From Terriglobia bacterium (GTDB lineage Bacteria; Acidobacteriota; Terriglobia; Terriglobales; Acidobacteriaceae), in contig JAIQFZ010000059.1 of NCBI GenBank assembly GCA_020073015.1, forward strand, positions 1-40,207: a stretch of DNA of 40,207 bases, written 5' to 3'. A program made the translations under genes and the position numbers. Of this stretch, positions 1,093 through 40,207 are shown in pieces; position 1 is the first letter of the stretch, and each line of letters starts with the position of its first letter. The notes under the pieces were generated by a model, which saw nothing but the letters and a program-made list of their open reading frames with translations, had not been told where the DNA came from and made no database searches.

Positions 1093-1213
1093 TGCAGGAG
1101 ACCGCGATCGAAAACAGGATGATTAAAATACTTTAGACTGGACGCGGAGTATGAGTATGACTGGAAGCTGGATGTTGGAACCGCGCCGATAATGGCGGGC
1201 AGTCCACTGTTGT

Positions 1214-1453
1214 TCAGGGCTTTTGCGATAATTGCCGGAATGACACCAAGCACCAAGGCCCATCGGGCGATGCCGTTTGCTGCTGCAGGATATACGAATT
1301 GCCATCATCCGCACGAACTTTGTAAAAAGCATCCTCCGGGCCATACCACTGGTCCAACAACTCCTGGACTACATACGGGCGGCCGTCAAGCCAAAAACGA
1401 ACAGGTCTTTCGTCTCCCTTCCGTCCGGAGTAGCAATCTACCTCGATCTTCAT
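1214..1453 (-). CDS. conserved hypothetical protein, 79 aa (RPVRFWLDGR type)
   Basis: A short soluble protein beginning MKIEVDCYSGRKGDERPVRF and containing FWLDGRPYVVQELLDQWYGP and FYKVRADDGNSYIL. I recognise this layout as a small family common in acidobacterial genomes: a basic N-terminal strand, an Arg-Pro-Val-Arg-Phe-x-Leu-Asp-Gly-Arg core, a Trp-Tyr-Gly-Pro turn and a final Asp-Asp-Gly-Asn strand. No function is known to me. There are no membrane segments and only one cysteine. It lies 76 bases downstream of rpoD on the same strand, so it may share its transcript. The last 15 residues are less family-like and may be variable. The ATG at 1451-1453 is the only start that preserves the N-terminal strand. 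Confidence 0.7.
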   Translation of the reverse strand: MKIEVDCYSGRKGDERPVRFWLDGRPYVVQELLDQWYGPEDAFYKVRADDGNSYILQQQTASPDGPWCLVSFRQLSQKP

Positions 1454-1529
1454 AATGCCATTCTCGCCCTACTGCCAGAACTTGTCTGCACGGAACCAGT
1501 TCTCATGTTTCAGTAGCACCCGTGTGGCG

Positions 1530-3245
1530 TCATTCGTGTCGGTGGTCGAGGAATGCTTTGAGCTGGCGAAATGGCGGGGAGTGGCGTAGCTTGCGCAGCG
1601 CCTGCGACTCGATCTGTCGGATGCGCTCACGGGTCACGGCGAAGGACTTACTCACTTCCTCCAGTGTGTGCTCTGTGCCGTCTTCCAGACCAAAGCGCAT
1701 TTTCACCACCTTTTCTTCCCGCGCGGAAAGCGAATGCAGCAATTCTTTCGTCTGTTCCCGTAGCCTTACGTCCGCAACAGCATCGGCGGGCGAAACCACG
1801 GCCCGGTCTTCGATGAATTCGCCGACGTGGGAATCCTCTCCACCGCCGATTGGTGTCTCCAGGGAGATTGGCAGCCGAGAGATCTTGCGCACGTAGCGCA
1901 CCTTAGCTACCGGGATGTCCATGCGCTTGGCGATCTCTTCGCAGCTCGGCTCACGTCCCAACTCCTGTACCAGTTGCTGCGACGAGCGCAGTAGCTTGTT
2001 GATGATCTCGATCATGTGCACCGGAATACGAATCGTGCGTGCGTGGTCGGCAATAGCGCGCGTAATGGCCTGGCGGATCCACCACGTGGCGTAGGTGGAA
2101 AACTTGTACCCGCGGCGATAGTCGAACTTGTCCACCGCCTTCATCAACCCGAGGTTGCCCTCCTGGATCAGGTCGAGGAATGGAAGTCCTCGGTGGTGGT
2201 ATTTTTTGGCGAGAGAAACCACGAGGCGCAGGTTCGCTTCAATCAGATCGTGCTTGGCCTGCTCCTCGTCCATTTCGCCACGGACGATTCCACTCGTGGT
2301 GTGGAGCAGCTTAGGTAGCGTGACACCGGCATCGTTTTCTAAAATTCCGAGCTTGATGCGATGCTGCCGTTGTGCTGCCACGTAGTATTCCTTCAGTTCT
2401 TGTTCGCGCGTCCTCCCGATCTTCTTTTCCAAATCCCTGACCTGGCGATCCAGCATGCCCATCATGTTTGCGGTCCTGTTCACACAACCGACTAAGCGTT
2501 TGCGCGCAGGGCTAGTAAGCCCGAGCTTGCGAATAATGAGCGACATCCGAACGATCTCGCGGGCCAGTATGGACCGGCAACGATCGTATTCGAGTGCCTT
2601 GCTCTTCCCGTGTACTGTTGATAAGCGCCGAGCTAGCTGACCGGCTCTTTTGTAATGCGTCTCCAGTTCGTCGATAGTGCGGGTGGTCTCTTGAAGGCGA
2701 TTGCGCAGGGTCTGGTCGGAAATTTCCTCCTCATCGAAAACCACAATTTCCCTGATCGATCGAATCCCGTACTTCAAATCCGAGCCCATGGTCAAAATCT
2801 GGCGGATTACGATCGGCGACCGTGAAAGCGCTTTCAGTACGCGCAGCTGGCCGCGCTCAATGCGCCTGGCAATCTCCACTTCCGCTTCGCGGTTGAGGAG
2901 AGGCACGCGTCCCATCTCGCGCAGGTAGATACGCACCGGATCGGTAGTTTCCTCGGGAGGGCCTGGGGTGGGTTCGAATTCGAGCTCGTCGGCTGCATCC
3001 ATTTCCTGGATCATCTCGTTCTTGAGCACTGAGGTGGAGGGAGGCAGGTCCGGTTGGCGCTCTAAGATGTCAATACCTCGTGTGCCGACACTGGTCAGCA
3101 GATCGTAAACCTCGTCGGAGGTGGAGACCTCGTGGCGACTCGGGCCTTTCGCACCACCGTAGCTGGGACAGAACTCTTCCTTCCCAGGCTTACTGAGTAT
3201 TGCCCCATCGGCACGGGCACAGCGAAATTGTTTCAACGTCGACAC
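1530..3245 (-). CDS. rpoD: RNA polymerase sigma-70 factor, RpoD type, with reduced region 1.1
   Basis: 571 residues from a GTG start. Region 1.2 is at about 102-135 ([19 protein letters not shown]). A non-conserved insert with coiled segments runs from about 140 to 325. Region 2 is at about 331-405 ([53 protein letters not shown]), region 3 at about 410-480, and region 4 at about 495-560 with the -35-binding helix-turn-helix [19 protein letters not shown]. It is therefore a group 1-like sigma factor recognising -10/-35 promoters. Unusually, region 1.1 is reduced: residues 1-38 resemble nothing, and only the last part ([20 protein letters not shown]) matches it. dnaG is not adjacent. A second, specialised rpoD copy is possible. 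The exact start is uncertain because no good ribosome site precedes the GTG. Confidence 0.93.
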
Positions 3246-3439
3246 ACAAAACTGAGGAAGGGTGGCCAGCCAGCAATCACTTCGCGATCGGCTATCCTGT
3301 CCCAGGATGGGACACAGTGAAGGGGGACCGCCATCTAATTTGCTTCTACAGCAACCTAAACGCCGGCGTCAATGACAAGCCCGAAGAGCGTCTAGGACCG
3401 GAACGTCCCGGTTGCGGCCATGATCCGGGGCACAGATAG

Positions 3440-3670
3440 CTACGCTGCCCAGGTGTCGTCACCGTAGTTCTTGTACACATAGTTGTTCTGGCACGCGGTG
3501 GAGCAGAAGTGCACGGCATTCGGCTCGCTGGCACGCTCCTCGTCCCATTTCCCGAGCAGGGTGATGGTGTATTTCATCACAACGCTCTTCTCTTTCGTGC
3601 CCTCGAAGCCCAGCAGCCAGTCCTTAGCATCACCCCTCCGCTTGCCACAAAAACTACAGAGAAATTCCAT
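3440..3670 (-). CDS. small zinc-finger-like protein, 76 aa
   Basis: Begins MEFLCSFCGKRRGDAKDWLL and ends HFCSTACQNNYVYKNYGDDT. Two Cys pairs (Cys5-x2-Cys8 and Cys56-x3-Cys60) at the two ends, with a basic linker, predict a compact zinc-bound fold of the TRASH/FCS or ClpX-zinc-finger kind, possibly binding protein or nucleic acid. The frame is open to 3973, but the upstream part is low-complexity Arg/Ser-rich sequence, and the family-like sequence starts at this Met. I have seen similar proteins in acidobacteria; function is unknown. It sits between rpoD and a Crp-type regulator, all on the minus strand but with gaps of about 195 and 375 bases, so it is probably transcribed separately. Confidence 0.7.
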   Translation of the reverse strand: MEFLCSFCGKRRGDAKDWLLGFEGTKEKSVVMKYTITLLGKWDEERASEPNAVHFCSTACQNNYVYKNYGDDTWAA

Positions 3671-4044
3671 GCTAGAGGCTGTTCTCAAAGTAGTCATCCC
3701 ACATTCAGTATCGTCCGCAGTGGTCGAAGAGTCTGTGACGCTCCGCGCTTCCCATGTGGGACGGTCCGAAGTAGGCTGAGCGATCAGCCCGGCTGCGTAA
3801 CCCGAAGGGCAACCAAACCTGAAAAAACGGAACGGTCTGCGAGGAGCGGGTGGGCCTTGGAACTGCGAAAGCAGTAACCGCATCAAGGGGGCTGTGACGG
3901 TGCGTGCATCCAGTGGCCGTCTCTCTGAAGTGTCTGCGGCTAGAACGCAACCAATGTTGCGGCCCTTTCTCATCGCCGGCGGAGTGAACTTTCTGGACGC
4001 TGGCGAACTTTTTCTGGCTATCTCTCGCTATTTCGGAATTCCAA

Positions 4045-4767
4045 CTACGCTGCTGCTGCCAAGGCCCGCAGCTTGCGCTCGTCTTCGATAACAAGGGTTG
4101 TGCCGCAGCGGCGAATAAGCTCCTTCCGCTCGAAAGTCGTGAGCAGCCGCGTCACTGTTGCACGGGCAACCCCGACAACTTCGGCGAGCTCCTGGTGGGT
4201 CAGGGGAAATCGAAGACGAGGCTTACCTTTGGACTCATCGTCTTGGTGCATATCCCACCGCACAAGCACTCGAGCAAGCTTTTGGGCTGCGGAGTGTGAC
4301 AGCCCAAATAGTCGCGCGCAGTCGTGCATCTTTCGGACATCATTGCTCAAGGACGTTGCGGCCGCAAAACACGCTGCCGGATCGTTTCGCAAGAGAGCCA
4401 GAAACCGATCGGCTTGGATGATTCTCAGCTGGCAGGGCTCGAGAGTCTCGATTGTCACTTGGTGCGGTTTTCTCGAAATCGCAGCACTCAGACCGAGAAC
4501 CGTTCCCGGCCCGGCAAACCCAAGGCAGATTCTCTTGCCCGTCTCCGATGCTGTGGAGATCTTGACGTGACCTTGGCAAACGATTGATATTTCACGCGCT
4601 GATTGCCCCCTTGCGCTCAGTACTGAGCCTTTAGGGCAGGCCGTTGCGAAGCCGAGAGCCTGGAGCGCATCGAGGCTGCGGGGTGGGAGATCACAAAACA
4701 ATCTTTGTGCTCGCAGTTTGCAGCGCAGGCAACTCTCCACGATCTCAAGGCCGTACGGTGAACGCAT
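4045..4767 (-). CDS. Crp/Fnr-family transcriptional regulator, 240 aa
   Basis: An N-terminal Cys13-x2-Cys16 and Cys25 precede a cyclic-nucleotide-binding-like beta barrel (about 30-130), a dimerisation helix (about 135-165) and a winged helix (about 175-235) with LTHQELAEVVGVARATVTRL. Architecture and length fit Crp/Fnr regulators. The phosphate-binding cassette is not classical: where CRP has Gly-Glu and an Arg, this reads PGTVLGLSAAISRKPHQ, so cAMP binding is doubtful. The N-terminal cysteines recall Fnr but do not make its four-Cys iron-sulfur set. In the recognition helix the CRP glutamate is alanine (ARATVTR). The chosen ATG follows CTGGGAAACGAT; an upstream in-frame extension to 4929 is not family-like. 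A cluster of palindromes lies 180-230 bases upstream. Confidence 0.9.
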   Translation of the reverse strand: MRSPYGLEIVESCLRCKLRAQRLFCDLPPRSLDALQALGFATACPKGSVLSARGQSAREISIVCQGHVKISTASETGKRICLGFAGPGTVLGLSAAISRKPHQVTIETLEPCQLRIIQADRFLALLRNDPAACFAAATSLSNDVRKMHDCARLFGLSHSAAQKLARVLVRWDMHQDDESKGKPRLRFPLTHQELAEVVGVARATVTRLLTTFERKELIRRCGTTLVIEDERKLRALAAAA

Positions 4768-4948
4768 ATCGTTTCCCAGCCGAGATCTGTGTTGGCTCCT
4801 TCCACGGTAGCACGAACGGCCTGTTGCGGCTGAATGGCTTTCGGGGGGAGATGGGACCGATTGTCGACTCAGTCGTGAAATGAACGTCGGTCTGCTGCAG
4901 GACGGCGGTATCGCCTTTGGAGTCTCCAACCCCGCGATGCGAGCTTGT

Positions 4949-4994
4949 CACAATCGACTGTGTTCGCGGTCACCGAGATGGTGATCAGGGTCAC
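4949..4994. promoter_or_regulatory. cluster of three CRP/FNR-like palindromes
   Basis: Within 46 bases there are CACA-N6-TGTG (4949-4962), TCACC-N5-GGTGA (4970-4984) and GTGA-N6-TCAC (4981-4994). The last has exactly the core half-sites and spacing of the classical CRP operator (GTGA, 6 bases, TCAC); the second overlaps it by four bases. They lie in the 388-base gap between the minus-strand Crp-type gene (start 4767) and the plus-strand zinc-ribbon gene (start 5156), an ideal place for autoregulation and divergent control. The pattern is seen directly; binding by the neighbouring regulator is inference. Confidence 0.5.
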
Positions 4995-5155
4995 TGAAAT
5001 CTTGATTCCCCGGGGAAGAACATGGGCAATAAACGCTCAAGCATTCCAAGAGCTGCTTCTCGCCAGCACCTCTGGGGTACACATCGCAAACGCTGGATAC
5101 CCGTGGTCTTCACGGGCGCACAACCTTCTACGATTCAGGAAAGCGCGGACGCGCT

Positions 5156-5443
5156 ATGCTCACCAAGTGCGCCAATCCGGCCTGTCTCGCTAGATTCCAC
5201 TATTTCCACGAGGGAAGACTGTTCACTATTGAGCCTAGGATTGACAGGCCCAAGAGGGGGCCGCCCAGTGATCCCGAATACGCGAGTGGGCCCGACCGTG
5301 TCGAGTATTTCTGGTTGTGCTCCTCGTGCTGTCACGCCATGACGGTCGAATGCGGTGGAAATGGAGGAGTTGCGGTAGTGCGTAAGGAAGGAGTGCAAGT
5401 GAAAACTTTCGTGATGGGGGACGACACTCGAAGAGTCGCGTGA
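5156..5443 (+). CDS. small zinc-ribbon-like protein, 95 aa
   Basis: Starts MLTKCANPACLARFHYFHEG and carries a second pair in FWLCSSCCHAMTV. The two knuckles (Cys5-x4-Cys10 and Cys55-x2-Cys58) with an acidic/basic linker suggest a zinc ribbon. I recognise the N-terminus (MLTKCANP.C...F.Y..EG.LF) as a family repeatedly found in acidobacteria, of unknown role and often next to regulators. The C-terminal tail has a VRKEGVQVKTF strand and no membrane segment. It faces away from the Crp-type gene and shares the palindrome-bearing intergenic region, so it may be controlled by it. AGGAAAG lies about 12 bases before the ATG, an acceptable ribosome site. Confidence 0.72.
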   Translation: MLTKCANPACLARFHYFHEGRLFTIEPRIDRPKRGPPSDPEYASGPDRVEYFWLCSSCCHAMTVECGGNGGVAVVRKEGVQVKTFVMGDDTRRVA

Positions 5444-5465
5444 GGGCCTCCCTCAGGGGGTGTTT

Positions 5466-5837
5466 ATGAGAATCGTTGGGAACACTCTGCAAGTCCTAAG
5501 GAATGAGTTGCGGTTTGTGCAAGGGGGCGGCTACCGGAAGCCGCTCGTATGGAGGGCTCCGCTGGTCTTCGAAGACTCACCAACCTGCGCCAAAGAACAG
5601 TGTTCTGCTTGTCGGGACATGGATTGCGTGCTGATGAGGTTTATTCCGGAAGAATGCCGCCACGAGGCCGTCCCGTGTCGTCACATTTCACTGAATGAAT
5701 TAGGGGAGACGATAGACAGCCTGTACAGGACGGGAACAAACGAAGAGATTGAACTGGCACTACAAACCTGGCTGCGGGAGACCATCCGGCAGCTCGAGGA
5801 GACTTCCGAACAGCCGTTGCTCGTGAAAGCAGCTTAA
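5466..5837 (+). CDS. conserved hypothetical protein, cysteine-rich, 123 aa
   Basis: Start at ATG 5466, five bases after a strong AGGGGG; a GTG two codons earlier is possible. The N-terminus (MRIVGNTLQVLRNELRFVQG) is basic and helical, followed by WRAPLVFEDSPTC, a Cys cluster (CAKEQCSACRDMDCVL), EECRHEAVPCRHI, then DSLYRTGTNEEIELALQTWL and a helical acidic end. About seven cysteines in the middle could bind metal. The closing segment (a GT-x-EE-x-E-x-AL-x-x-WLRE helix) is familiar from acidobacterial hypotheticals; no function is known to me. It follows the zinc-ribbon gene by 22 bases on the same strand, suggesting a two-gene operon. Confidence 0.68.
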   Translation: MRIVGNTLQVLRNELRFVQGGGYRKPLVWRAPLVFEDSPTCAKEQCSACRDMDCVLMRFIPEECRHEAVPCRHISLNELGETIDSLYRTGTNEEIELALQTWLRETIRQLEETSEQPLLVKAA

Positions 5838-6027
5838 GCGCTTACAACGGGATCGCAAAAAACAGGAACATGCGCCGTTCCTTCCCGGGTCCGGTTTAAT
5901 TTCCGAACCGAATTCGAATACCAGAATCGAGCTCAATCAAGGTCGTCAGAGTTCGTCAGGCCAGGCCGTGTCGCGACTCGCCAGGCACGCGGCTGGTCTG
6001 ATTGTTGAAGAGTGGCCAGCGAGGTGA

Positions 6028-6768
6028 ATGGTGCCCTATGTCGAGGTGCAAACCCGTCTTTCTATCGAGAACATATTGCTAGCCGCAGTGTTTTCCGAAC
6101 CTTCAGAAGCGATCCTGTCTTACACAGTCGGTTTCGCCCGCCGGTATGGCTCAAAAATGTCTTTGACAGGCGCGGCCTCTCCCGGAGCGATTTGCGAGAT
6201 CGTCAGGAAATGGCAGGTCGACTTGGTCGTAATCGGCACACAAGCTCAGGAGTCGCCCAAGTCGGACTTGGACACGGCAGTTGCGGAAATTCTGCGCACC
6301 GTGCCGTGTCCCATGCTCATCATAGGCCCGAGGGTCCCACAGATGGAGCTGGCGAAGGGACGCCTTGAGCGAATCGTGTACGTGACTGACTTCACGATTA
6401 GCTCTTTGGACGGCGTGCCGTGCGCACTTGCTTTGGCTCAGGACCATGATGCACAGCTCAGGTTCGTGCATGTTGCTGAGGAAACCGCAATGGGTCCTTT
6501 CCATTGTGGGGACTCCAGGATTGTGGCTTTTCGAAAACGGCTGGACAGCCTAGTTGCACCGGCAAAGGGTCTCTTGCAGGGATCGGAGTTTGTTGTTGGA
6601 GAGGGCGATCGGGCGGAGGGATTAGTTAGGATCGCGGCCAACCTGCATGCGAGCTTGATTGTAATGAGTGCACGAGGGAATCCAGCGCAACTGTTGTGGC
6701 CCGTTGCTAGTCGAGTGGTCTGCCGTGCGCACTGCCCGGTGCTCACAGTGCGGAGGCTTTCCATGTGA
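6028..6768 (+). CDS. universal stress protein, tandem UspA domains, 246 aa
   Basis: The second half is a full Usp fold: LERIVYVTDFTISSLDGVPC, the alpha/beta core with RFVHVAEE, then ASLIVMSARGNP and VVCRAHCPVLTVRRL. The first half has the opening (SIENILLAAVFSEPSEAILS) and closing (VDLVVIGTQAQ, VPCPMLIIGP) of a Usp domain, but the central strand-helix part is only about 30 residues, so this domain looks internally shortened. The nucleotide loop G-x2-G-x9-G(S/T) is not intact in either half, so ATP binding is doubtful. Usp proteins protect during energy or redox stress; the gene neighbours GalT-like and MreB genes. GAGGTG lies very close to the ATG, so the GTG at 6031 may be the true start. 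Confidence 0.85.
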   Translation: MVPYVEVQTRLSIENILLAAVFSEPSEAILSYTVGFARRYGSKMSLTGAASPGAICEIVRKWQVDLVVIGTQAQESPKSDLDTAVAEILRTVPCPMLIIGPRVPQMELAKGRLERIVYVTDFTISSLDGVPCALALAQDHDAQLRFVHVAEETAMGPFHCGDSRIVAFRKRLDSLVAPAKGLLQGSEFVVGEGDRAEGLVRIAANLHASLIVMSARGNPAQLLWPVASRVVCRAHCPVLTVRRLSM

Positions 6769-12299: not shown

Positions 12300-13076
12300 C
12301 TACCCGGATGTTCCCCGGTCGGAGCAACCCGGTTCACCCGATTGAATCATACGCTCGATAAGCCTCGTCATGCGTTGATAGTGCGATCCCTTCCAGTAGA
12401 CCCGATCACACTCCGGGCAAAGATGGAACTGGTGGTAACGCTGCCTCGTGTCTGGGAGCAGGCGGTCGTTGATCAGCTCTTTCGCGACGGGCTGCAATAG
12501 AGCGTTGCAGTGGAGACACCGCCGAAAAGGAGCAATCAGACTCGAGAGGTTGTAACGGCTCACTACTTCAATAAGTTGTAGCTCTGGTTGCGCTTCACGC
12601 ACCAGGTATCCGTGAGTCACTATGCTGCGCTTTAGCAACCCGCGATCCCTGCTCAATAGAGTCCGTTGCTGGCTGCTGGAGATATACGCGAGCTCCTCAT
12701 CCTCACAGTCATTACGATACAAACTGTCGAAGCCCAGCATTCGCAGATGAGCCGCCAACTTGCCAAGATGCGTGTCGAGCACGAAACGTATTTCGCCTTC
12801 GCGCCGAGGCGGCAGATGTGTGAGCGGACTAGGATTGAGCGAACGAAAAACTGGATACACGCTGATTCTGTCTCCGTCTCGCAAGAGGTAGGAAAAAGCA
12901 GCGGGCTCGTCGTTCGCCAGGATGAAATCGACCTCAGTGTGCGGCACCCCGAACGCTTCGATTGCATCCTTCACCGATGTAGTGGTTTCAAAAGCATGAG
13001 AAAGGGTCTGTCCTCTTCTTGGCAGTGGGAGCAAGTCATTCAGCTCCGCGTAGAATCGAAAATACGCTTCCTTCAT
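12300..13076 (-). CDS. Mut7-C RNase-domain protein with N-terminal ubiquitin-like domain, 258 aa
   Basis: The N-terminal 75 residues (EAYFRFYAELNDLLP, VKDAIEAFGVPHTEVDFILA, RDGDRISVYPVF) form a beta-grasp ubiquitin/ThiS-like domain. The remainder is a Mut7-C domain: RFVLDTHLGKLAAHLRMLGF, EELAYISSSQQRTLLSRDRGLLK, GYLVR, then a zinc ribbon with RRCLHCNALLQPV and HLCPECDRVYWKGSHYQRM. The Asp in VLDTHLGKLA and the LLSRDRGLL acidic site match the PIN-like active site. The family is inferred to act on RNA; biochemistry is scarce. A TTG eight codons upstream (13100) is possible, but this ATG directly precedes the domain. It is followed at 10 bases by a membrane-anchored protein. Confidence 0.88.
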   Translation of the reverse strand: MKEAYFRFYAELNDLLPLPRRGQTLSHAFETTTSVKDAIEAFGVPHTEVDFILANDEPAAFSYLLRDGDRISVYPVFRSLNPSPLTHLPPRREGEIRFVLDTHLGKLAAHLRMLGFDSLYRNDCEDEELAYISSSQQRTLLSRDRGLLKRSIVTHGYLVREAQPELQLIEVVSRYNLSSLIAPFRRCLHCNALLQPVAKELINDRLLPDTRQRYHQFHLCPECDRVYWKGSHYQRMTRLIERMIQSGEPGCSDRGTSG

Positions 13077-13128
13077 TTGCTTAGCGCCGGCCGATTCCAA
13101 CGGAATACGGGCTGCCCGTGAGTCCGCG

Positions 13129-13491
13129 TTACGATCTGAACGCTGGAGGGCGCGGGTCGTAATAAGTAAGGACAGTGATCCTAGCGACGCCCTTTGTCTG
13201 TGGCCTGCCCCTGCTCGTTGCAGTTATGTGATACACACCCTGAATCTTTGGTGCAGTATACAGACCCGAATCTGTAATGGTCCCGCCGTTTTCCTCCTCC
13301 ACAGCCCAATTCACAGTTTTGTCGCGGATCCCAACTACCGTTGCTACAAAGGTCTGCATTTCGCCCGCAAAGAGGGTCGCCTTCGCAGGGTCTATCGTCA
13401 CTGTTACGTTCGCCAACGGGCGAACGCTGGCTTGGCCATACAAGAGGTCAGCGCAGGCGAGCACTATACCGGCGAACAGAAGGGGGAGCAT
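13129..13491 (-). CDS. secreted Ig-like (BIG2-type) domain protein, 120 aa
   Basis: ATG after AGGTGTGAAG. A signal peptide (MLPLLFAGIVLACADLLYGQ, probable cleavage after YGQA) is followed by one bacterial Ig-like domain: VTVTIDPAKATLFAGEMQTF, VNWAVEEENGGTITDSGLYT, APKIQGVYHITATS and a closing VARITVL strand. The pattern 'T-L-x-A-G-x-x-x-x-F ... G-x-I-x-x-x-G-x-Y-x-A-P' is the one seen in repeats of acidobacterial cell-surface proteins. It is short for the family, which usually has several repeats, so it may be a stand-alone adhesin-like unit or a remnant. The frame opens further upstream (13542), but the signal peptide fixes this start. Confidence 0.75.
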   Translation of the reverse strand: MLPLLFAGIVLACADLLYGQASVRPLANVTVTIDPAKATLFAGEMQTFVATVVGIRDKTVNWAVEEENGGTITDSGLYTAPKIQGVYHITATSRGRPQTKGVARITVLTYYDPRPPAFRS

Positions 13492-13869
13492 CTTCACACC
13501 TGAGACGCTGGCTTTTCGTCGATCCTTATCGTCAACCAGCACATACGCCCTTGTCTGTGATCACGGCTACCAGTGCTCACAATTCCCGGCTATGAGGCGC
13601 ATCGGAGTCGCGAGTGAAAGTGGAGTCAGGATCAGCTCGTCTCTGACAGCCAATTCCGCTGGGGTCTTGGGACTCTTGGAACAAGTCTTGTTGACGATTG
13701 AGTGTTGGCTTGCGTCGGCCTAAAATAGCCCTAGATGCGAAAAGAGTTCGTCGGCTGACCGAATCTCGACTCGAGATCCGAGCCTGCCTTGTCCATTTGA
13801 TCCAGTTCTGGACCTCGTTCTTCACAAAGACCGCCTTGGTCTCTCCTGGTCCACGAGGAGGTGCAGGGT

Positions 13870-14223
13870 ATGCTGGGAATGAACTTGCTTTCCTTTCTGA
13901 TTCTCACTCTCATCGGGGCAGTTGTTGCTGTTGCCTACCACTACGTTATTCGCTATCGGTTTCTTGACGGCAGTGATGCTCTGGTCGGGAAGCTGATCGT
14001 TGGTTGGCTTGGAGCCTGGCTAGGTTCCCCGATCCTTGGGCACTGGCTCTGGAAGGTTGAGAACGTGTACATCGTGCCCGCCATCTTGGGCGCGATCGCA
14101 GCCATCCATTTGACTGTTTTGATGGGGAAGGCGTTTGCCAAACTTGCAAGCATGCGGCCGGCAGTGACGGAAGAAAAGAAGAAGGAGGAGATCCGCCCTG
14201 GCAAGCCGGCAGTAGCGGCATAA
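13870..14223 (+). CDS. small integral membrane protein, GlsB/YeaQ/YmgE-like, 117 aa
   Basis: ATG at 13870 sits eight bases after AGGAGG, better placed than the GTG at 13861. Three hydrophobic segments: NLLSFLILTLIGAVVAVAYH, a Gly-rich one with LIVGWLGAWLGSPILGHWL, and VYIVPAILGAIAAIHLTVLM, then a Lys/Glu-rich cytoplasmic tail (EEKKKEEIRPGK). The middle helix pattern resembles transglycosylase-associated/GlsB-type proteins, though the family is usually about 85 residues and lacks this tail. Function is unknown, with a possible role in envelope stress. The next gene on the same strand starts 78 bases later. Confidence 0.68.
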   Translation: MLGMNLLSFLILTLIGAVVAVAYHYVIRYRFLDGSDALVGKLIVGWLGAWLGSPILGHWLWKVENVYIVPAILGAIAAIHLTVLMGKAFAKLASMRPAVTEEKKKEEIRPGKPAVAA

Positions 14224-14301
14224 GAAGTTGCTACTCGGCAAGCAAAGCGCTGACCAGTTGTGGGACTGAAGAGACCGGCCACGTGCCGAGGAAGGGTTTG
14301 T

Positions 14302-14676
14302 ATGCCTAGCCCAAAGATTCTGTGCGTTTCTTTCGATCGAGTTGTTTCAGAGAGCCGGAGTAGCAGTCTCAAAGAAGCTGGTTACGACGTGACGGCGACG
14401 ACCAACATTAAGGAGGGGTTGGGGCTGCTGAAGCGCGATCGATTTGACGCCGTGATTGTCGGTCACCGATTTTCAGCGGAAGAAAAATATCTTTTGGCAG
14501 TCGGTGCCAAAGAGAAGTCGAACACGCCTCTTGTCCTAGTTTGCGGCGCCACTCAGGATTCCGAGATTCCTGCGGCCAGCCGAGTCTATGCTCTCGAGGG
14601 CAACACCGGTCTGCTGTCCGCGCTGTCTCGATTGTTTCCCGCTGAGTCCGCAGCTCGGCCGCAGGCGGCAGCCTGA
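14302..14676 (+). CDS. pseudo-receiver protein, 124 aa
   Basis: ATG after GGAAGGGTTTGT. The fold reads as a receiver: PSPKILCVSFDRVVSESRSS, LKEAGYDVTATTNIKEGLGL, RFDAVIVGHRFSAEE, TPLVLVCGAT and a final helix ending LLSALSRLFPAE. The phospho-acceptor Asp after strand 3 is replaced (VIVGHR) and strand 1 ends Ser-Phe-Asp, so phosphorylation is not expected. Proteins with Val-Ile-Val-x-His instead of Asp are a recurring acidobacterial type. It may act as a protein-interaction module. It is the second such protein in the window (see 11367), and no histidine kinase is present. Confidence 0.75.
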   Translation: MPSPKILCVSFDRVVSESRSSSLKEAGYDVTATTNIKEGLGLLKRDRFDAVIVGHRFSAEEKYLLAVGAKEKSNTPLVLVCGATQDSEIPAASRVYALEGNTGLLSALSRLFPAESAARPQAAA

Positions 14677-14846
14677 GGCCTCGCGGCGGTCTTCAAGATT
14701 GCGTGAGTTGACCGGCCATGGCTGGTAGTACGGCGTGGAAGGTTCACGAAGCCAGCGGGAACAACTCAGCAGTCGAAGAGAAAGCAACCAAAACGAGATG
14801 AAGACATCCCACCGCTTCTGTAGCGTGTGCTAAGGGAGGGTTTGAT

Positions 14847-15311
14847 ATGCGATCGAGTGCGAAGAAGCATTCCGGAAGCACGAGAAGTAGAGTGCAGCCC
14901 ACCGTTCGGAGGAGTCGGAAAGTTAATGCCGATCCCACGATCCGCCAAATCGGCAATGATTGGGCTCGCCATTGGAATGCAGGAGAGTTGGACGAAGTGG
15001 TAGCTGCTTATGCTGCCGACGCCGTTTACCTTCCGCCACATCACGAAGCCGTTCACGGGCGCGATGCCATTCGGGAGTATTTGAAAGCGCCGCTCAGCCA
15101 TGGCGTGTCTGACCTGGCCTTTGAAGTTACCTACATTAAGCAACAGGGGCCCGTTGCCTGGGATGTGGGAACGTACCGCATGACCATTCCTCAGAATGAC
15201 GGTACGAAAAAGGAGGATCACGGCAAATACCTCACCGTGTGGAGGCGGGTCGGCAAGGCTTGGCTGATCGCAGCAGACGCTTGGTCGAGCGATTTGCCCG
15301 CTTCAGCGTGA
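14847..15311 (+). CDS. SnoaL-like/NTF2-fold (DUF4440-type) protein, 154 aa
   Basis: ATG after GGGAGGGTTTGAT. A 30-residue basic, Ser/Arg-rich N-terminus precedes an NTF2-like domain: IRQIGNDWARHWNAGELDEV, AYAADAVYLPPHHEAVHGRD, IREYLKAP, EVTYIKQQGPVAWDVGTYRM, HGKYLTVWRRVGKAWLIAAD. The 'A-D-A-V-Y-L-P-P ... G-R-D-A-I' pattern and the W-R-x-x-G-x-W-x-I end are characteristic of DUF4440/SnoaL-like proteins, which include isomerases, hydratases and non-enzymatic binding proteins. The basic N-terminal extension is unusual and no signal peptide is evident. Substrate cannot be inferred. Confidence 0.85.
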   Translation: MRSSAKKHSGSTRSRVQPTVRRSRKVNADPTIRQIGNDWARHWNAGELDEVVAAYAADAVYLPPHHEAVHGRDAIREYLKAPLSHGVSDLAFEVTYIKQQGPVAWDVGTYRMTIPQNDGTKKEDHGKYLTVWRRVGKAWLIAADAWSSDLPASA

Positions 15312-15409
15312 CACTTCGACTTTGTGCGTTTTTTTCGCCTGTCCGCTAGACGCAAGCGTGGTCTTGATCAGTGAACATCGGATGCTAAGCCGTTCGTTCA
15401 GGAGAAATT

Positions 15410-15604
15410 ATGGAGTTCCTACTAAGCACCGAAGAACATCAACTCTTGTTGGACATTCTTGAGCAGCGTCATCGCGAACTATTGAAAGAGATCTCGCACA
15501 CGGACCACCATGAATTCAAGCAAGCCCTGCGCAAAAATGAGAAGCTGCTCGAGTCCATCTTGACTCGCTTGCGGGGAGCGTCAGTTCAAGAGCTTCGTAC
15601 TTAA
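15410..15604 (+). CDS. small helical conserved hypothetical protein, 64 aa
   Basis: ATG after AGGAGAAATT, an excellent ribosome site. The product (start MEFLLSTEEHQLLLDILEQR) is almost entirely helical with heptad-like hydrophobics (LLLDILEQRHRELLKEI, FKQALRKNEKLLESILTRL), suggesting a two-helix coiled coil. I have seen short proteins with this opening in acidobacteria. Function is unknown. It is encoded 37 bases ahead of archease and may be part of that transcript. Confidence 0.7.
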   Translation: MEFLLSTEEHQLLLDILEQRHRELLKEISHTDHHEFKQALRKNEKLLESILTRLRGASVQELRT

Positions 15605-15640
15605 GACCTGTCTGGTTACCGAAAGCTCTGGGTGATCCAA

Positions 15641-16045
15641 ATGATGAGTTTTGAGGAAATCGAGCACACGGCCGACCGAGCTTTTCGCGTCACCGGCCAC
15701 GACATGGCAGACTTGCTGGAAAATGCTGCCCATGCAATGCAAGCGCTGGACGGACCGCGACCTCCAGGGGAACCATCGGCAACACGAGAGATTGAAGTCG
15801 AAGGAGTTGACTGCGAGTCGCTGCTGGTGAACTGGCTGAATGAAGTCCTGTATCTGGAACAGGCACATCAGCTGGTCTGTGAGCAGTTCCACATTGATGA
15901 GCTCAAGAATCATCGTCTACGCGCGCGAGTCGAAACCCGGGAGTGCGACCGAAGCTATACACACATCAAAGCGGTGACATTTCACAACTTGAAAATACGC
16001 GAGACTTCCGAAGGCCTTGAAGCCGAGGTTGTTCTGGATGTTTAG
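15641..16045 (+). CDS. archease, RtcB activating protein, 134 aa
   Basis: Opens [20 protein letters not shown], the archease signature with its metal-binding Asp in His-Thr-Ala-Asp, followed by [48 protein letters not shown] and a C-terminal EAEVVLDV strand with the final Asp. Archease promotes guanylylation and turnover of the RNA ligase RtcB. The downstream rtcB starts 20 bases after this stop, a strong functional pairing. The Met chosen follows GGGTGATCCAA; a GTG at 15632 and the next Met (15644) are alternatives. Length is typical. Confidence 0.9.
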
Positions 16046-21686: not shown

Positions 21687-24600
21687 ATGGACAACGGAAA
21701 CCAACACAGAAACCCAGTAAGATTCGTCATTTTCATCCTCACCGTAACACTAACGATCGTCGCATTTGTCGCCCTGCAGCCATTCCAGGCGGCCGGAGGC
21801 GCATCTTCTGCCGTCGCAACCTATTCCCATGGCGTGCTGCACCTGACCATTCCCTACCATGCGGCTCGCGCCGGAGCCGGACAGTTGACGATGGAAGTCC
21901 TGGATCCGGAAGACAACGTGCTGGGCCACGCCGAGCGGCACGTTGAGGTAGCCCGGGGACAAGGACGGTGGCAAGACGAGATCAAGCTGGAGAAGCCGCT
22001 GCCGCTGGACGATCTGGTGTGGCATCGCGTTCACTACCGCTTCGAATATGACGATCATAAAACTGCGGGGTTGGAGGGTGCGGAGTCGATCTCGCAGGTC
22101 CTGCGCACGCCCGTGATTCACATTCTGGGACAGCAGGCTTACTTGACCGGCGGCCTGGCGGCGGTGCGCGTGATCGTCACCGACTCGAGAAATGAAGTCA
22201 TTGCCGGCCGTGGCGCGGTACGCATTGAATTTCTCGCTGCCGCCGACAAACCCCGGCTCCTTTTTACGGGCCAGCTGAATCGCAGGGGGACGACCGAGGC
22301 TCAGTTCCGGTTTCCTGCCGGCTTGGTGGGCAGTTACCAGCTGCGCTATGTTGTGGATACTCCGATCGGTTCCACCGAGTTTACCCAGGCAGTGCGGTTG
22401 GAAGACAAGGTTTCCATCCTTCTTACGGCTGAGAAGCCAATCTACCAGCCGGGCCAAACGATCCACGCGCGCGCGCTGGCACTCGACCGTTCCGACCACG
22501 AGGCGGCGGCCAACCACAAGCTCACTTTCGAACTCGAAGATTCCCGCGGTAACAAGGTGTTCAAAAAAGCGACTGCGACGGACCAGTTCGGAGTTGCATC
22601 GGCAGAATTTGGACTGGCCGATGAGGTAAACCTTGGCACCTACCACCTGCGCGCGCTGATGGGCGACGCCGAGTCGCCTACGAATACGGCGGAGATCGCC
22701 CTCAACGTCGAACGATATGTTCTGCCGAAGTTCAAGGTGGCTGTCGAATTCAGCGAGAACGGCAAGACGCAGAAACGTGGCTACCAGCCTGGTGATCACG
22801 TCACCGGCACGGTGCGCGCCCACTACTTTTTTGGAAAGCCGGTGGATGGCGCCGAAATCAGCATCAAGGCCTCGGCAATGGACGTAGAAGTGTCTGAGGT
22901 GGCGTCCGCCCAGGGAAAGACGGACACCGATGGTTCCTATCGATTCGATCTCCACTTGCCGAAATACTTTGCCGGGCGGCCTCTTAGCCACGGCGCCGCT
23001 CGCGTGCTGATTGAGGCCACGGTGAAAGATTCCGCCGGTCATGCGGAAACTCGCGGCGAACCGATCACGGTCAGCGAATCGCCGCTGCTGATTACGGCGG
23101 TTCCCGAGGGCGGTACCCTGGTCCCCAATCTGGAGAACCAGGTGTTTGTCCTGACATCTTATCCTGATGGGACTCCCGCGAAGGCTGACTTGCTCATCCA
23201 CGCCCGCGGGAATACCGATCAACGCGTGGCCTCTGATGATGGTGGCGTTGCGGTGGCTCGCATAAAACCGGGCGACGGCACCGAAACCTTAGAGATTGAG
23301 GCGACCGATCAAGAAGGGAACCACGCGTCGAGCAACGTTCAACTGCAAGCTCGCGAGGGCGAGGATCAGATTCTGCTGCGCACCGAACGCGCCGTGTACC
23401 GCGCCGGTGATCGCATCGAACTGAAGGTCTTTTCCACCAAAACACGCGGGGCCGCGTACGTGGACATCGTCAAAGAAGGACAAACGGTGCTGACGCGTGA
23501 CCTGGAAATCAAAAATGGTCAGGCGAAACTTTCCCTGACGGCCACGCCGGAGATGGCGGGGACGGTGGATTTCAGCGCGTACCTCTTCGGTCGGGACGCA
23601 CGTCCCGTCGGGGATCATCGCCTGATCTTCGTGCAACCCGCGGACGAATTGAAGATTGAGGCGGTGGCGGATGCGGCCGTCTACAAGCCGGGCGGCGAGG
23701 CGCGCATCCGCTTCCGCGTGACCAACTCGCACGGCGAGGGTGTCCACGCCGCGCTCGGCCTGCAAGTGGTGGACGAAGCTGTGTTCGCTCTGGCGGAGAA
23801 GCAGCCGGGTTTCGCCAAGGTCTTCTTCTATCTCGAGCAGGAGGTGATGAAGCCGCGCTATGAGATCCACTCGATCGGCATGCCGGACATCGTGGAGCCG
23901 GTTGAGAAGTCGCAGGTCGAACAGCGTGACCGGGCGGCGCGGGCTTTGTTTTCGGCGACAGAAATCGTGAGCCCAAACAAGTTTGAAGCGGAATTCGGAA
24001 AAGATGTGCCGATGGCCAAGTATGGCGTGTATGCGCAGCGTTACCAGGCGCGTTTTCAAAAACAGGCGAATGATTTAGCAAAGAAACTCAGTCAAGCGTA
24101 CGCGGAGAATCCGAAGGCGGTCGACCCGCCTCGAATTTATGCGAAGCTCGCGCAATCAGGCGGGGCCGAGTTTCGGGACGCCTGGGGCACGAGTCTCACG
24201 CTTGAACACGTGTCTTGGGATGCCAAGAAAACTTACTACCTTTTGCGCAGCGCCGGTCCGGACCGGCAACTTAACACCAGCGATGACATGCAGACTTATT
24301 TGCTGTTTCAACGCAAATGGGTCGCCGGTCCCCCGGGTCCGGGGTCGACCAAGATCAGCGTCAACATTGAGCACGATCGTGGACCCTTCAATGGCCGCAC
24401 GGAGATCGTCGGAACCGTTACCGATCCCTCCGGCGCAATGGTTGTGGGAGCCAGCGTCGAGTTGCGTAACGTCTCCAGCGGAAAGATCCGCAGTGCGATA
24501 ACCAATGCCGCCGGGCAATTCAGTCTGTCGGCTGTGCCCGCCGGTGACTACGTGGTTCAAGTGTCCATGGCTGGATTCAAGATCGCTTCGGGAGAATTCA

Positions 24601-25061
24601 CTCTTCACGCACGCGATCGCGCCGCGCTCTCCGCAACTTTATCCGTTGGCCAAGTTTCCGAAGCGATTGCGGTCGCTGGTGCGAGTGTGATGGTTGAGAC
24701 TGAAAGTGCGATGCTTGCTCGTGCCCCGATGCCTGCTGGTGTTCCCGGCGGTGTGGTCGGCGGCGTGATTGGCGGCATTGGTACTGGTGCAAGTGCGGGG
24801 ATGAAGGAACTGCCGCTCAATGGCCGCAACGTCATGGATCTTAAAGCGGTTAACGGCGCGATCCTGGCGAAAGACGAGTCCGGATCGCCCTCCGCACACG
24901 TGCGCTCCTATTTCCCCGAGGCGCTCTACATCAATCCCGAGATCATTACCGATAAGGACGGGCGCGCCAGCATTGTGATTCCGATGGCCGATTCCATCAC
25001 CACGTGGCGCATGGCGATGATTGCGTCCACGCAGCACGGCGCGCTGGGAACGTCCACTTGA
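21687..25061 (+). CDS. alpha-2-macroglobulin-like protein, N-terminal fragment with TonB-receptor-like insert
   Basis: 1124 residues after CGGAGACAGC, ending at a premature TGA. A signal anchor (about 12-32, VRFVIFILTVTLTIVAFVAL) precedes macroglobulin-type beta domains (HILGQQAYLTGGLAAVRV; MG2 at about 245-340 with LTAEKPIYQPGQTIHARALA; YVLPKFKVAVEFSENGK; later APG-like MG domains to about 900). Residues 905-985 are a carboxypeptidase-regulatory (CNA-B-like) domain (GTVTDPSGAMVVGASVEL, FSLSAVPAGDYVVQVSMAGF), followed by a Gly-rich stretch and KELPLNGRNVMDL (about 1039), as in acidobacterial TonB-dependent receptors. Then MG sequence resumes (YFPEALYINPEIITDKDGRA, ADSITTWRMAMIASTQHG). A2M proteins trap proteases. 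The thioester half is cut off by a frameshift at 25057-25061. Confidence 0.85.
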   Translation: MDNGNQHRNPVRFVIFILTVTLTIVAFVALQPFQAAGGASSAVATYSHGVLHLTIPYHAARAGAGQLTMEVLDPEDNVLGHAERHVEVARGQGRWQDEIKLEKPLPLDDLVWHRVHYRFEYDDHKTAGLEGAESISQVLRTPVIHILGQQAYLTGGLAAVRVIVTDSRNEVIAGRGAVRIEFLAAADKPRLLFTGQLNRRGTTEAQFRFPAGLVGSYQLRYVVDTPIGSTEFTQAVRLEDKVSILLTAEKPIYQPGQTIHARALALDRSDHEAAANHKLTFELEDSRGNKVFKKATATDQFGVASAEFGLADEVNLGTYHLRALMGDAESPTNTAEIALNVERYVLPKFKVAVEFSENGKTQKRGYQPGDHVTGTVRAHYFFGKPVDGAEISIKASAMDVEVSEVASAQGKTDTDGSYRFDLHLPKYFAGRPLSHGAARVLIEATVKDSAGHAETRGEPITVSESPLLITAVPEGGTLVPNLENQVFVLTSYPDGTPAKADLLIHARGNTDQRVASDDGGVAVARIKPGDGTETLEIEATDQEGNHASSNVQLQAREGEDQILLRTERAVYRAGDRIELKVFSTKTRGAAYVDIVKEGQTVLTRDLEIKNGQAKLSLTATPEMAGTVDFSAYLFGRDARPVGDHRLIFVQPADELKIEAVADAAVYKPGGEARIRFRVTNSHGEGVHAALGLQVVDEAVFALAEKQPGFAKVFFYLEQEVMKPRYEIHSIGMPDIVEPVEKSQVEQRDRAARALFSATEIVSPNKFEAEFGKDVPMAKYGVYAQRYQARFQKQANDLAKKLSQAYAENPKAVDPPRIYAKLAQSGGAEFRDAWGTSLTLEHVSWDAKKTYYLLRSAGPDRQLNTSDDMQTYLLFQRKWVAGPPGPGSTKISVNIEHDRGPFNGRTEIVGTVTDPSGAMVVGASVELRNVSSGKIRSAITNAAGQFSLSAVPAGDYVVQVSMAGFKIASGEFTLHARDRAALSATLSVGQVSEAIAVAGASVMVETESAMLARAPMPAGVPGGVVGGVIGGIGTGASAGMKELPLNGRNVMDLKAVNGAILAKDESGSPSAHVRSYFPEALYINPEIITDKDGRASIVIPMADSITTWRMAMIASTQHGALGTST

Positions 25062-26886
25062 GGCGGACAACTGGTTCTCGCTGATCGATGACGTTGCCGA
25101 AAAGTCGATGACGGTAGAGTCGTCCCGTGTCGGAGGCTCACAGTTCACGCTCGAAGCCAAGCGCATCGGGAAGTTTAAGCTAACGCTTTCCGCTCGCATG
25201 AAAGGCCGAGCCGATCGTGCCGACATCGTGGTTCGGGAGATTGAAGTCATCCCCAACGGCCGAGAGCAGAATCTGGTATTCAACGGCCGCCTGGAAAACA
25301 CGGTACAGCATGAAGTCAGCTTCCCGGCGACCTCCATTCCAGACGCCAGCAAGATTTTCGTCCGGCTCTATCCCGGCCCCATGAGCCAGGTCGTCGAAGG
25401 CATGGACAGTATTCTGCGCATGCCGGGCGGTTGCTTTGAGCAGACTTCTTCGAGCACGTACCCCAACGTGCTGGCGCTGGACTACATGAAGCGCACCAAG
25501 AAGCTCACTCCAGAAGTGCACGCCAAAGCTGAGGGATACATTGCGAACGGCTATCAGCGGTTGCTGACGTTCGAGGTTCCCGGCGGCGGATTCTCGTGGT
25601 TCGGCAGCGCGCCGGCAAACAAAATTCTCACTGCTTACGGCCTGATGGAGTTCTACGACATGTCAAAGGTCTACGACGTAGACGCGAAACTCATCCTGCG
25701 AACGCAGCAGTGGCTCGCCAGTCAGCAGCAGGAGGATGGCAGCTGGAAACCCGACATCTCCTTTATTAATGAAGGCGCCACCAACCGCTACAACTCAAAC
25801 GTACTGCGGATCACGGCATACATCGCCTGGTCGCTCGGCAACACGGGATACCAGGGAACGGCCGTCGAACGAGCCAAGCAGTATGTCGAAAAACACATGA
25901 GCGCAAAATTGGACGCCTACACCCTGGCGGTGGTGGCTAACTTCGCGGTCGATTACGGCAAAGATCGAGAATTCACGCGGCAAGCGATCCAACTTCTGCT
26001 GGATGCACGCACTGAGAAAGACGAACAGGTTTGGTGGAACGCGGACGAGACGAGCGTCTATGCCACTGGGCAGAGCGCCAGCGTGGAGACTACAGGACTG
26101 GCGGTGCAGGCTCTGCTTCGCTCGGGGGAGGCGCCGGGGACGGCACGCAAGGCTCTCAGTTACCTCGCTTCGAAGAAAGACGCGTACGGAACGTGGGGAA
26201 CTACCCAGGCGACGATCATGGCGCTGCGTGCTCTGCTCACCGCCACCGAGAAGGGCGCGGCCGACGTTCGCGGCACGCTGCTAGTCTTGCTCAACGGTAA
26301 GCCAGTTGAAAAGCTCGTCCTGACGCCGGAGAACAACGATCTGCTCCATCAGTTCGTGTTCAAGGACATCGATTCACAAAGTGCCAACACGGTTGAAATC
26401 CGGTTCGAGGGCAAGGGCGGCCTCGCTTACCAGGTCGTGGGGACCTACTTCCTCCCCTGGGATCAGAAGCCGGCGGGCGAACCTCTCTCCATCGATGTCG
26501 CATACGACCGCACCCACCTCGCGCAGGACGACATTGCCACGGCGAGCGCGACGGTCAGGAACAATATGGACAAGACCGCCAACATGGTAATGGTGGATCT
26601 TGGCATACCGCCCGGTTTTGACCTGCTCAGCGAAGATTTGCAGACATACCAGGAGAAGAGCTCGGGCCTGAAGAGTGGCCACTTGTCGAAGTTCAGCCTT
26701 ACGGCGACCCAGGCCATTCTCTACTTCGATTCGTTCGCCGCGGGGGATACGGTCACAGTGAAGTTCCGTCTGCGGGCCAAGTATCCCATCCGCGCGCGGA
26801 CATTCAAGTCGCGAGTCTACGAGTACTATAATCCCGAGGTCAGCTCGATCGCGCGGCCCGTGCAACTGGAGGTGCGCAAGCGCTAG
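25057..26886 (+). pseudogene. alpha-2-macroglobulin-like protein, C-terminal thioester half in shifted frame
   Basis: Frame shifted relative to the upstream fragment; family-like sequence starts at LEADNWFSLIDDVAEKS near 25057. It contains the thioester site GGCFEQTSSSTYPNVLALDY (Cys at 25432-25434, Gln at 25441-25443; the typical form is Gly-Cys-Gly-Glu-Gln), the alpha-toroid terpenoid-like domain (WLASQQQEDGSWKPDISFIN, YVEKHMSAKLDAYTLAVVAN, SASVETTGLAVQALL, TQATIMALRALLT) and the receptor-binding-type C-terminal beta domain (VTVKFRLRAKYPIRARTFKS, YEYYNPEVSSIARPVQLEV). Between the two fragments the expected linker strand (about 40 residues by memory of the family) is missing, so this is a deletion as well as a frameshift. 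A TTG at 25021 could start it, but with no signal peptide the product would stay in the cytoplasm. Confidence 0.82.
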
Positions 26887-39966: not shown

Positions 39967-40207
39967 CTAGGGTTTGACTGGGAGTTCGATGTTAATCCGA
40001 ACTGCGACAGCCTTGCCGTCTAGGGTCGCTGGTCGGAATTTCCATTTTTTCACAGCTTCTATCGCTGCCTGATCCACGTTTGGTGCCAGGGGCCGCGCTA
40101 CCTTGATGTCGCGCGGTACGCCATCACTGCCCACCACAATGAAGAGAACAACCTTCTCATCCTTAAAACGTTGGCTCGCTTCCCTCGGATATTCTGGGTC
40201 GGGAGAG
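39967..40207 (-). CDS. TonB C-terminal domain protein, partial (5' end beyond right edge)
   Basis: The minus strand reads SPDPEYPREASQRFKDEKVV, LFIVVGSDGVPRDIKVARPL, VDQAAIEAVKKWKFRPATLD, GKAVAVRINIEL and then stops. This is the C-terminal domain of TonB-like energy transducers, which contacts outer-membrane receptors and passes proton-motive energy. The conserved Gly-x-Asp-Gly-x-x-x-x-x-x-Val and Ala-Val-x-x-Trp-x-Phe-x-Pro-Ala patterns are present. About 80 codons are visible; the rest lies beyond the window. No ExbB/ExbD is seen. Confidence 0.9.
   Translation of the reverse strand, partial: SPDPEYPREASQRFKDEKVVLFIVVGSDGVPRDIKVARPLAPNVDQAAIEAVKKWKFRPATLDGKAVAVRINIELPVKP

Follow-up and report, generated by a model that had tools for sequence, protein, structure and literature searches.

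We analyzed a window of 40,207 nucleotides from a Terriglobia bacterium of the phylum Acidobacteriota (i.e., positions 1 to 40,207 of contig JAIQFZ010000059.1 in assembly GCA_020073015.1; "the window" hereafter means this whole stretch). The window carries a gene for an alpha-2-macroglobulin (A2M), which is read in two overlapping frames (i.e., 21687 to 25061, encoding 1,124 amino acids [aa], and 25021 to 26886). The predicted protein combines macroglobulin (MG) domains, an A2M_BRD domain, and a thioester domain with a CxEQ motif, as thioester-type A2Ms do, and it contains an inserted module that resembles parts of the TonB system. The features of the gene are listed below; residue numbers are those of the first fragment.

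21687 to 25061, plus strand: first open fragment of the A2M gene (1,124 aa), with a signal-like helix, MG domains, the bait region, and the start of the MG7/A2M domain (open reading frame list, Pfam, and AlphaFold2)
22419 to 22952, plus strand: MG2 and MG3 domains, residues 245 to 335 and 343 to 422 (Pfam PF01835 and PF17791)
23376 to 23792, plus strand: A2M_BRD domain, residues 564 to 702, with its C-terminal end at VDEAVF (Pfam PF07703; E = 1.5e-15)
23907 to 24305, plus strand: inserted pseudopilin (T2SSG)-like domain, a helix and strands with RDAWG...SAGPDxxxxTxDD, residues 741 to 873 (AlphaFold2 block with a predicted local distance difference test score [pLDDT] of 72 to 92; remote similarity)
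24405 to 24641, plus strand: CarboxypepD_reg, the N-terminal extension (NTE) fold of TonB-dependent transporters, residues 907 to 985 (Pfam and fold match)
24651 to 24941, plus strand: disordered hypervariable stretch, residues 989 to 1085, running into the MG7 start; presumed bait proper (pLDDT and column entropy)
24657 to 24680, plus strand: Ton-box-like octapeptide SEAIAVAG, residues 991 to 998 (column comparison; the same place behind the NTE as in Bt1763, according to the accessible part of PMC7782687)
24744 to 24776, plus strand: PGGVVGGVIGG, a TonB-type Gly/Val linker (motif comparison)
24810 to 24830, plus strand: LPLNGRN, a receptor plug-start motif (weight matrix and motif position)
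24900 to 24920, plus strand: VRSYFPE, the start of the MG7/A2M domain; the same motif of the orthologue at locus L054 aligns with VRKYFPE of human A2M
25057 to 25062, plus strand: junction that lacks 133 bp relative to the orthologues L054 and L033, with a broken frame (alignment)
25021 to 26886, plus strand: second open fragment of the A2M gene, with the thioester domain and the A2M receptor-binding domain (A2M_recep) (Pfam)
25429 to 25443, plus strand: thioester motif GCFEQ (motif position)

The best CarboxypepD_reg stretch of the first fragment was residues 907 to 985 (whole-protein E = 2.7e-23). The A2M domain starting at residue 1084 scored just under the cut-off (E = 4e-4) because the frame stops there, and the thioester domain, with its GCFEQ, was found in the second fragment (E = 1.9e-46). 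Behind CarboxypepD_reg, SEAIAVAG, PGGVVGGVIGG, LPLNGRN, and VRSYFPE follow in this order. The Pfam matches and motif positions thus confirm the first-pass annotation, which had placed CarboxypepD_reg, a Gly/Val segment, and LPLNGRN between macroglobulin domains. No match to the Plug domain (PF07715) was obtained in the window protein up to E = 1, its Pfam matches included neither a beta-barrel family nor a TonB C-terminal domain, and an NCBIfam search of it returned nothing above the cut-off.

The insert had been placed only roughly where a protease bait would lie, and alignment with human A2M sharpened this to an exact place. The C-terminal half of the L054 protein matched human A2M with an E value of 1.5e-45 (and E. 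coli YfhM with 5e-5 only), and its HVRSYFPE started against TVRKYFPE at residue 730 of the full-length human chain. We take the human bait region to span residues 690 to 728; by this alignment, the insert occupies the bait position and lies immediately ahead of the end of the human bait. In a whole-chain fold search, the best 50 matches listed were complement and A2M-family chains. An AlphaFold2 model (41 sequences), which the first-pass annotation had proposed as a check, gave a folded NTE (block pLDDT, 76 to 85), a folded helix-plus-strands domain at 741 to 873 (72 to 92), and then a stretch, residues 989 to 1085, with a pLDDT below 50 throughout (25 to 31 over 991 to 1080). A disordered bait region is therefore predicted right before MG7. 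Published bait regions are largely disordered, according to the accessible part of PMC4498604.

Spread of the insert and the break in the window copy

A scan of genome contigs identified 50 loci, most of which matched nearly the whole first fragment, including the insert; their titles name Acidobacteriaceae, Bryobacterales, Candidatus Sulfotelmatobacter, Granulicella rosea, and others. At a threshold of E <= 1e-40, a sample of the phylum gave matches in 22 of its 297 genomes. From the contig scan and the phylum sample, we drew a working set of 62 non-redundant A2M proteins, and this survey for the same insert found the NTE (by domain profile) in 53 of them. The nine A2Ms without an NTE are L065 (of the main clade), both L128 copies, L129, L130, and four short proteins (L and G numbers denote our loci and genomes, and f numbers denote families). 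CarboxypepD_reg was assigned by Pfam in all 40 sequences submitted (i.e., the window protein and 39 relatives).

These four short A2Ms (L021, L138, and L024 of f53; L025 of f72) lack the inserted domains and have 106 to 109 residues between VDES/VDQS and the MG7 motif. The VDEA-to-MG7 spacing is 351 to 420 residues in the A2Ms measured, except in L065 (286), L129 (250), L130 (216), and the four short ones. On the basis of these sequences, the short A2Ms represent a natural empty site for the insert.

The first-pass annotation had allowed that the insert might occur only in this genome, at an assembly joint, but it is present in other genomes and in most of the working set. Continuity across 24350 to 24860 is backed by orthologues with the same order: the L054 protein is 57% identical to the window protein over 150 residues of this region, and dozens of other genome records, that of Granulicella rosea DSM 18704 among them, contain orthologues with this domain order. 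The window gene does break about 140 bp downstream of VRSYFPE, as might be expected if the insert had been joined to the A2M by an assembly or annotation artefact. The identical order in these orthologues rules out an assembly joint at the insert and leaves such an artefact highly improbable.

The break itself is due to 133 bp that are absent at about 25058 relative to the orthologues L054 (94 to 95% identical on either side) and L033; this size comes from aligned coordinates, the two aligned pieces of which overlap by 6 to 7 bases. Since 133 bp is one base more than 44 codons, the two fragments lie in different frames, and the gene as assembled has no intact reading frame. No copy of the missing segment turned up in the rest of the genome. 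As judged from the sequence, the break marks either a pseudogene or an assembly error. Seven of the 24 genomes of the genus, the present one included, have the A2M gene. Among the other six, four have open frames of 1,675 to 1,891 aa, G301 has a frame of 1,539 aa at a contig edge, and G328 has a split gene (L267, G328:C19:13000-22165; 888 to 6196, minus strand) with overlapping frames of 998 and 801 aa. Stops or shifts also interrupt the A2M frames in L043, L052, and L081.

Parts of the module and their origin

A fold search with the NTE domain (VIA-align) ranked carboxypeptidase transthyretin-like domains at the top (2nsm, Z = 11.4; 5aq0, Z = 11.1). The NTE of the TonB-dependent transporter SusCdex (9hfj; Z = 10.1; root mean square deviation, 2.2; 80 aligned residues) had a sequence identity of 30%, the highest among the matches listed. 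The fold is a common one. At the two key Ton-box columns, 51 of 53 A2Ms have V or I in the first and 47 have V in the second; the counts for receptors are 59 and 57 out of 61, and all 13 anti-sigma proteins (see below) conform in both. Column entropy is 0.38 and 0.17 bits at residues 994 and 996 and about 2 to 3 bits at most of their neighbors (i.e., V994 and V996 stay conserved amid hypervariable positions). The accessible part of PMC7782687 describes a flexible Ton box, DEVVVTG, behind the same domain in Bt1763 and calls the NTE a domain of unknown function.

The plug start was sought in 65 A2M linkers (a few duplicate records among them), each compared with its own shuffles, by use of an 18-residue weight matrix made from 19 LPLNGRN-type sites of own-genome receptors that were picked by eye from 36 rows. 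It was placed in 29 linkers at p<0.01 (0.65 expected) and in 35 at p<0.05. The matrix of the seven-residue core placed it in 22 and 30 linkers, respectively, and that of the nine residues after LPLNGRN in only 1 and 7. The shuffles rule out LPLNGRN as a chance occurrence. The A2M of G071 (family f41) has the sequence MPVIGHNFQNILTLSPGVTD; of 76 receptor modules compared, to which G071 contributed four, it was matched best by that of a G071 receptor that reads LPIIGHNYQDILTLTPGVTD. The A2M thus has the same unusual IGHN type of plug start as its own genome's receptor. By sequence, the A2Ms share with receptors an NTE followed by a Ton box, and a complete Plug domain and a barrel are absent from the window protein. 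The resemblance to a TonB-receptor N-terminal module that the first-pass annotation had noticed therefore holds for the domain, the Ton box, and the plug start, in that order, but the account was incomplete, as the Gly/Val part is of the TonB type. In L041, a TonB-dependent receptor gene (12476 to 15811) lies directly downstream of the A2M gene.

The linker of the own-genome TonB protein L172 (G000:C235:24221-24445) reads GGVPGGVPGGSMGGVIGG, and the A2M at L062 reads GGVPGGSMGGVIGG. The TonB-type Gly/Val motif occurs in 16 of 23 TonB frames of relatives, which were read at the top-scoring loci in 25 genomes. It was found in 22 of the 62 A2Ms versus 5 of 2,055 other frames (>150 aa, from the loci examined, with spurious frames included and TonB loci excluded). 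The TonB-like GGNV[QR], which is also seen in TonBs, occurs in 3 of the 62 A2Ms, and the deep member L128 again has TonB-type stretches. The Gly/Val part of the insert thus resembles, at the sequence level, a class of TonB linkers. The region 2719 to 13966 of L128 (G063) holds two tandem A2M genes, both with long Gly/Val-rich linkers. The A2M neighbor at L049 (6332 to 8434, minus strand) encodes a fusion of a BlaR1-type M56 peptidase with CarboxypepD_reg and TonB_C, and a TonB_C match lies at the edge of the window (39988 to 40200, minus strand).

N-terminal to the NTE, the insert contains a second domain, in which a helix is followed by RDAWG...SAGPDxxxxTxDD with an Asp-rich loop. The Pfam family T2SSG matched the deep relative L018 with 23.3 bits (cut-off, 21) and L019 and L026 just below the cut-off; it was not among the families shown for the window protein and its 39 relatives. 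The GspG structure 1t92 matched the L019 segment with an E value of 0.64, below two unrelated chains. A fold search with the insert had no GspG among the matches listed, which NTE matches filled, and for GspG in the own genome only a sub-threshold T2SSG match was obtained. On the basis of this remote similarity, we describe residues 741 to 873 as pseudopilin-like and do not call the domain a family member.

In a backbone tree (midpoint root; long branches), the four short A2Ms stand apart, followed by f21/f70 (with an NTE and a plug start), f41/f12 (without an NTE), six A2Ms that group together, and a main clade with 45 members. A short and weakly supported NTE tree places the main-clade A2Ms with deep A2Ms and some anti-sigma proteins, and f21/f70 among receptors. 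In f21, the G105 insert is closer to other A2M inserts (45 to 49%) than to receptors (<=42% among the stronger matches). The G149 insert, compared in a set without G105 and G173, is as near to receptors (up to 43%) as to other A2Ms (38 to 42%). The donor of the module may have been a receptor, an anti-sigma protein, or another A2M. The IGHN motif of f41 and the place of f21/f70 among receptors suggest repeated independent capture; a single origin is also possible.

Linked anti-sigma-like proteins

In 12 of the 50 loci (L037, L056, L059, L061, L063, L064, L070, L071, L073, L075, L076, and L081), the gene directly upstream of the A2M gene encodes a protein with an NTE and an N-terminal zinc finger (recognized by its Cys/His motif); several of the other loci carry little or no upstream sequence. 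The NTE and the zinc finger of L056 lie in two overlapping frames. Pfam assigned zf-HC2 in both L037 and L075, and the domain scored below the cut-off in L137 of G241. L075 belongs to Granulicella rosea DSM 18704, a cultured isolate not known to be pathogenic, and its A2M frame behind the anti-sigma-like gene is intact. Some of these anti-sigma-like proteins contain LPxNGRN, together with the NTE and the Ton box. In L037, the locus examined for a sigma gene, an upstream frame with Sigma70_r4 (sigma-70 region 4) overlaps the start of the anti-sigma gene. Six genomes have homologues that cover most of the L037 protein, and an A2M gene follows in G308, G328, G241, and G202. In the other two genomes (G384 and G130), no A2M frame was seen on the same strand in the 11.5 to 12 kb inspected, and the anti-sigma protein is therefore not linked to A2M exclusively.

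The genome of the window also encodes an unlinked zf-HC2 protein without an NTE (223 to 1626 of L120, G000:C114:45000-47200), which combines a Ton-box-like strand with LPVTARQ/LPLNGRN in tandem and has an end that is BNR/Vps10-like. Its DLPLNGRNMSEL... aligns over about 30 residues with ELPLNGRNVMDL... of the window (score, 69). This score is at tied rank 4 of the 62 A2M linkers, and the match is therefore not specific.

We compared each anti-sigma stalk with each A2M linker in 12 operons (L064 left out and L137 added). Pairs from the same operon had a mean score of 57.8, versus 38.7 for the others (permutation p = 1e-5). Without the Ton box and NTE, the means were 49.2 and 35.1 (p = 5e-5), and the own pair ranked first in 5 of the 12 rows and 6 of the 12 columns; when the three strongest pairs were removed, p was 0.005. 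The observed excess (14.1) was twofold the maximum of composition-keeping shuffles (7.1; 0 of 400 as high). Over the same 12 operons, neither the NTE domains alone (p = 0.2) nor the bait part before the NTE (p = 0.47) was operon matched, and the finger and membrane part of the anti-sigma protein gave a p value of 0.097. Single-operon p values were 0.0025 (the floor) for L037 and L075, 0.0075 for L059, 0.03 for L137, 0.04 for L073, and 0.06 for L070; we count matched linkers in two to five operons.

At the DNA level, identity between the stalk and linker segments was within the range of 50 codon shuffles in L037, L075, L061, L059, and L073 and slightly above it in L081 (30 versus 26). With five of six pairs no higher than codon shuffles, recent DNA exchange between the anti-sigma and A2M genes was not seen. 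As far as sequences can tell, some operons carry linkers that are matched at the protein level, by selection or by old exchange. The similar pieces in a sensor-like neighbor in some relatives hint at a like bait for trap and sensor, without proving it.

Bait, docking site, or spacer

Sequence comparisons and models establish the domain order, the bait position, the predicted disorder, the conservation within the family, and the likeness to receptors and TonB. The reading that we favor, tentatively and at somewhat less than an even chance, is a protease trap whose disordered bait mimics Ton-system proteins and catches the proteases that threaten them. The A2M family of the Acidobacteriota would then be a secreted or periplasmic trap, whose bait region has been enlarged by a Ton-system-like module (i.e., the pseudopilin-like domain, the NTE, and a disordered linker of about 90 residues with a Ton-box-like strand); in many members, the linker also has a Gly/Val stretch like that of TonB and the start of a receptor plug. 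A protease aimed at exposed Ton-system proteins would cut the look-alike linker instead, upon which the trap would close and the thioester would capture the protease. In some relatives, the trap gene is preceded by those of a putative sigma/anti-sigma pair, part of which have a stalk with a matching linker; cleavage of the stalk may free the sigma factor, leading to more trap being made. A bolder version is a baited sensor-trap pair, in which a membrane anti-sigma protein and a secreted macroglobulin would carry co-varying Ton-like baits, a single protease would both switch on and spring the trap, and the bait would be refreshed from the cell's own TonB receptors and TonB. We consider this version improbable.

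Several observations weigh against a Ton-mimicking bait and its matched sensor. CarboxypepD_reg is widespread (about 30 other loci in the own genome), 36 of the 65 linkers have no recognized plug start at p<0.01, and, of the 25 frames read at TonB_C loci of the own genome, only 1 has the Gly/Val motif; several of these frames are doubtful picks, and two further loci yielded no frame. The NTE tree is poorly resolved. The gene is broken in the window, G328, L043, L052, and L081 and is present in only 7 of 24 genus genomes. Two of the six homologues of the L037 protein (those of G384 and G130) have no A2M frame on their own strand within 11.5 to 12 kb. Reversed linkers still gave a p value of 0.029 in the matching test, and composition therefore explains part of the match, which is carried mainly by L037 and L075 and then by L059, L137, and L073, with nothing in 6 of the 12 pairs.

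The module may alternatively serve for docking rather than as bait, the TonB C-terminal domain gripping the Ton box and thereby anchoring the trap under the Ton complex or opening it mechanically. Few columns of the disordered stretch are as conserved as those of the Ton box, the NTE and Ton box form the unit before the plug in SusC (accessible part of PMC7782687), and the NTE-plus-plug part of the receptor Oar binds TonB in two-hybrid tests (accessible part of PMC6434023). However, the two valines may merely extend the last NTE strand, L129 of f41 has a plug start with no recognized NTE or Ton box, and, according to the same part of PMC6434023, Oar without its NTE still supports PopC secretion; we regard docking as unlikely. 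A neutral spacer, which we view with the same degree of doubt, would be a receptor N-terminal module captured by recombination, with the NTE as a generic beta-sandwich and the Ton box, Gly linker, and plug start as decaying relics. The hypervariability of the linker in sequence and length and the loss of the NTE in L065 are consistent with such decay, as are the unrecognized plug starts and the many other CarboxypepD_reg loci. It accords less well with the retention of V994 and V996 among hypervariable neighbors, with plug starts recognizable in divergent clades, with the return of TonB-type stretches in L128, and with an operon-specific stalk match that has no counterpart in DNA identity in five of six pairs.

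Among known systems, the metazoan A2M, CD109, TEP, and complement C3 proteins are the closest solved relatives, sharing the MG domains, the bait position, a GCxEQ thioester domain, and a C-terminal receptor-binding domain; most of the acidobacterial A2Ms measured differ from them in a VDEA-MG7 span of 351 to 420 residues with extra folded domains and Ton-system-like motifs. The enterobacterial type I A2Ms (YfhM/ECAM and Salmonella SaA2M) are likewise bacterial and thioester bearing and have a disordered bait, according to the accessible part of PMC4498604, which makes no mention of TonB. They match L054 only at E = 5e-5, and PDB entry names describe them as lipoproteins. Their genes are in an operon with PBP1c (accessible part of PMC5764988), whereas the genes linked here, where present, are sigma/anti-sigma-like. 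Oar/SusC-class receptors share the NTE (PF13620), Ton box, and LPLNGRN-type plug start in the same order, but the A2M has the plug start only, no barrel, and an internal rather than N-terminal module. The TonB energy transducer shares the Gly/Val linker type (GGVPGG..GGVIGG) and the GGNV[QR] motif, but the A2M lacks the TonB C-terminal domain. The zf-HC2 anti-sigma factors are represented by the neighbor protein of the relatives, which has an NTE and a Ton box as well and, in part of the operons, a linker that matches; it is encoded by a separate gene, and its relative in the window genome (L120) is unlinked to A2M. No A2M with such a TonB-related insert was described in the titles and abstract beginnings of the papers listed by searches of the open literature, a body of text that most subscription papers fall outside. 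In Myxococcus, Oar, a receptor of this NTE class, is needed for secretion of the protease PopC, with its NTE dispensable (accessible part of PMC6434023); by analogy, Oar and PopC illustrate another way in which proteases and NTE-class receptors meet.

The bait region of a macroglobulin decides which proteases are caught, and what bacterial macroglobulins catch is largely an open question. A bait drawn from the cell's own TonB machinery would, if true, name the likely targets. It would also provide a testable setting for the NTE domain and tie the production of the trap to a sigma/anti-sigma system. If the matched baits are real, these operons would encode a bacterial sensor and an effector that are tuned to the same protease.

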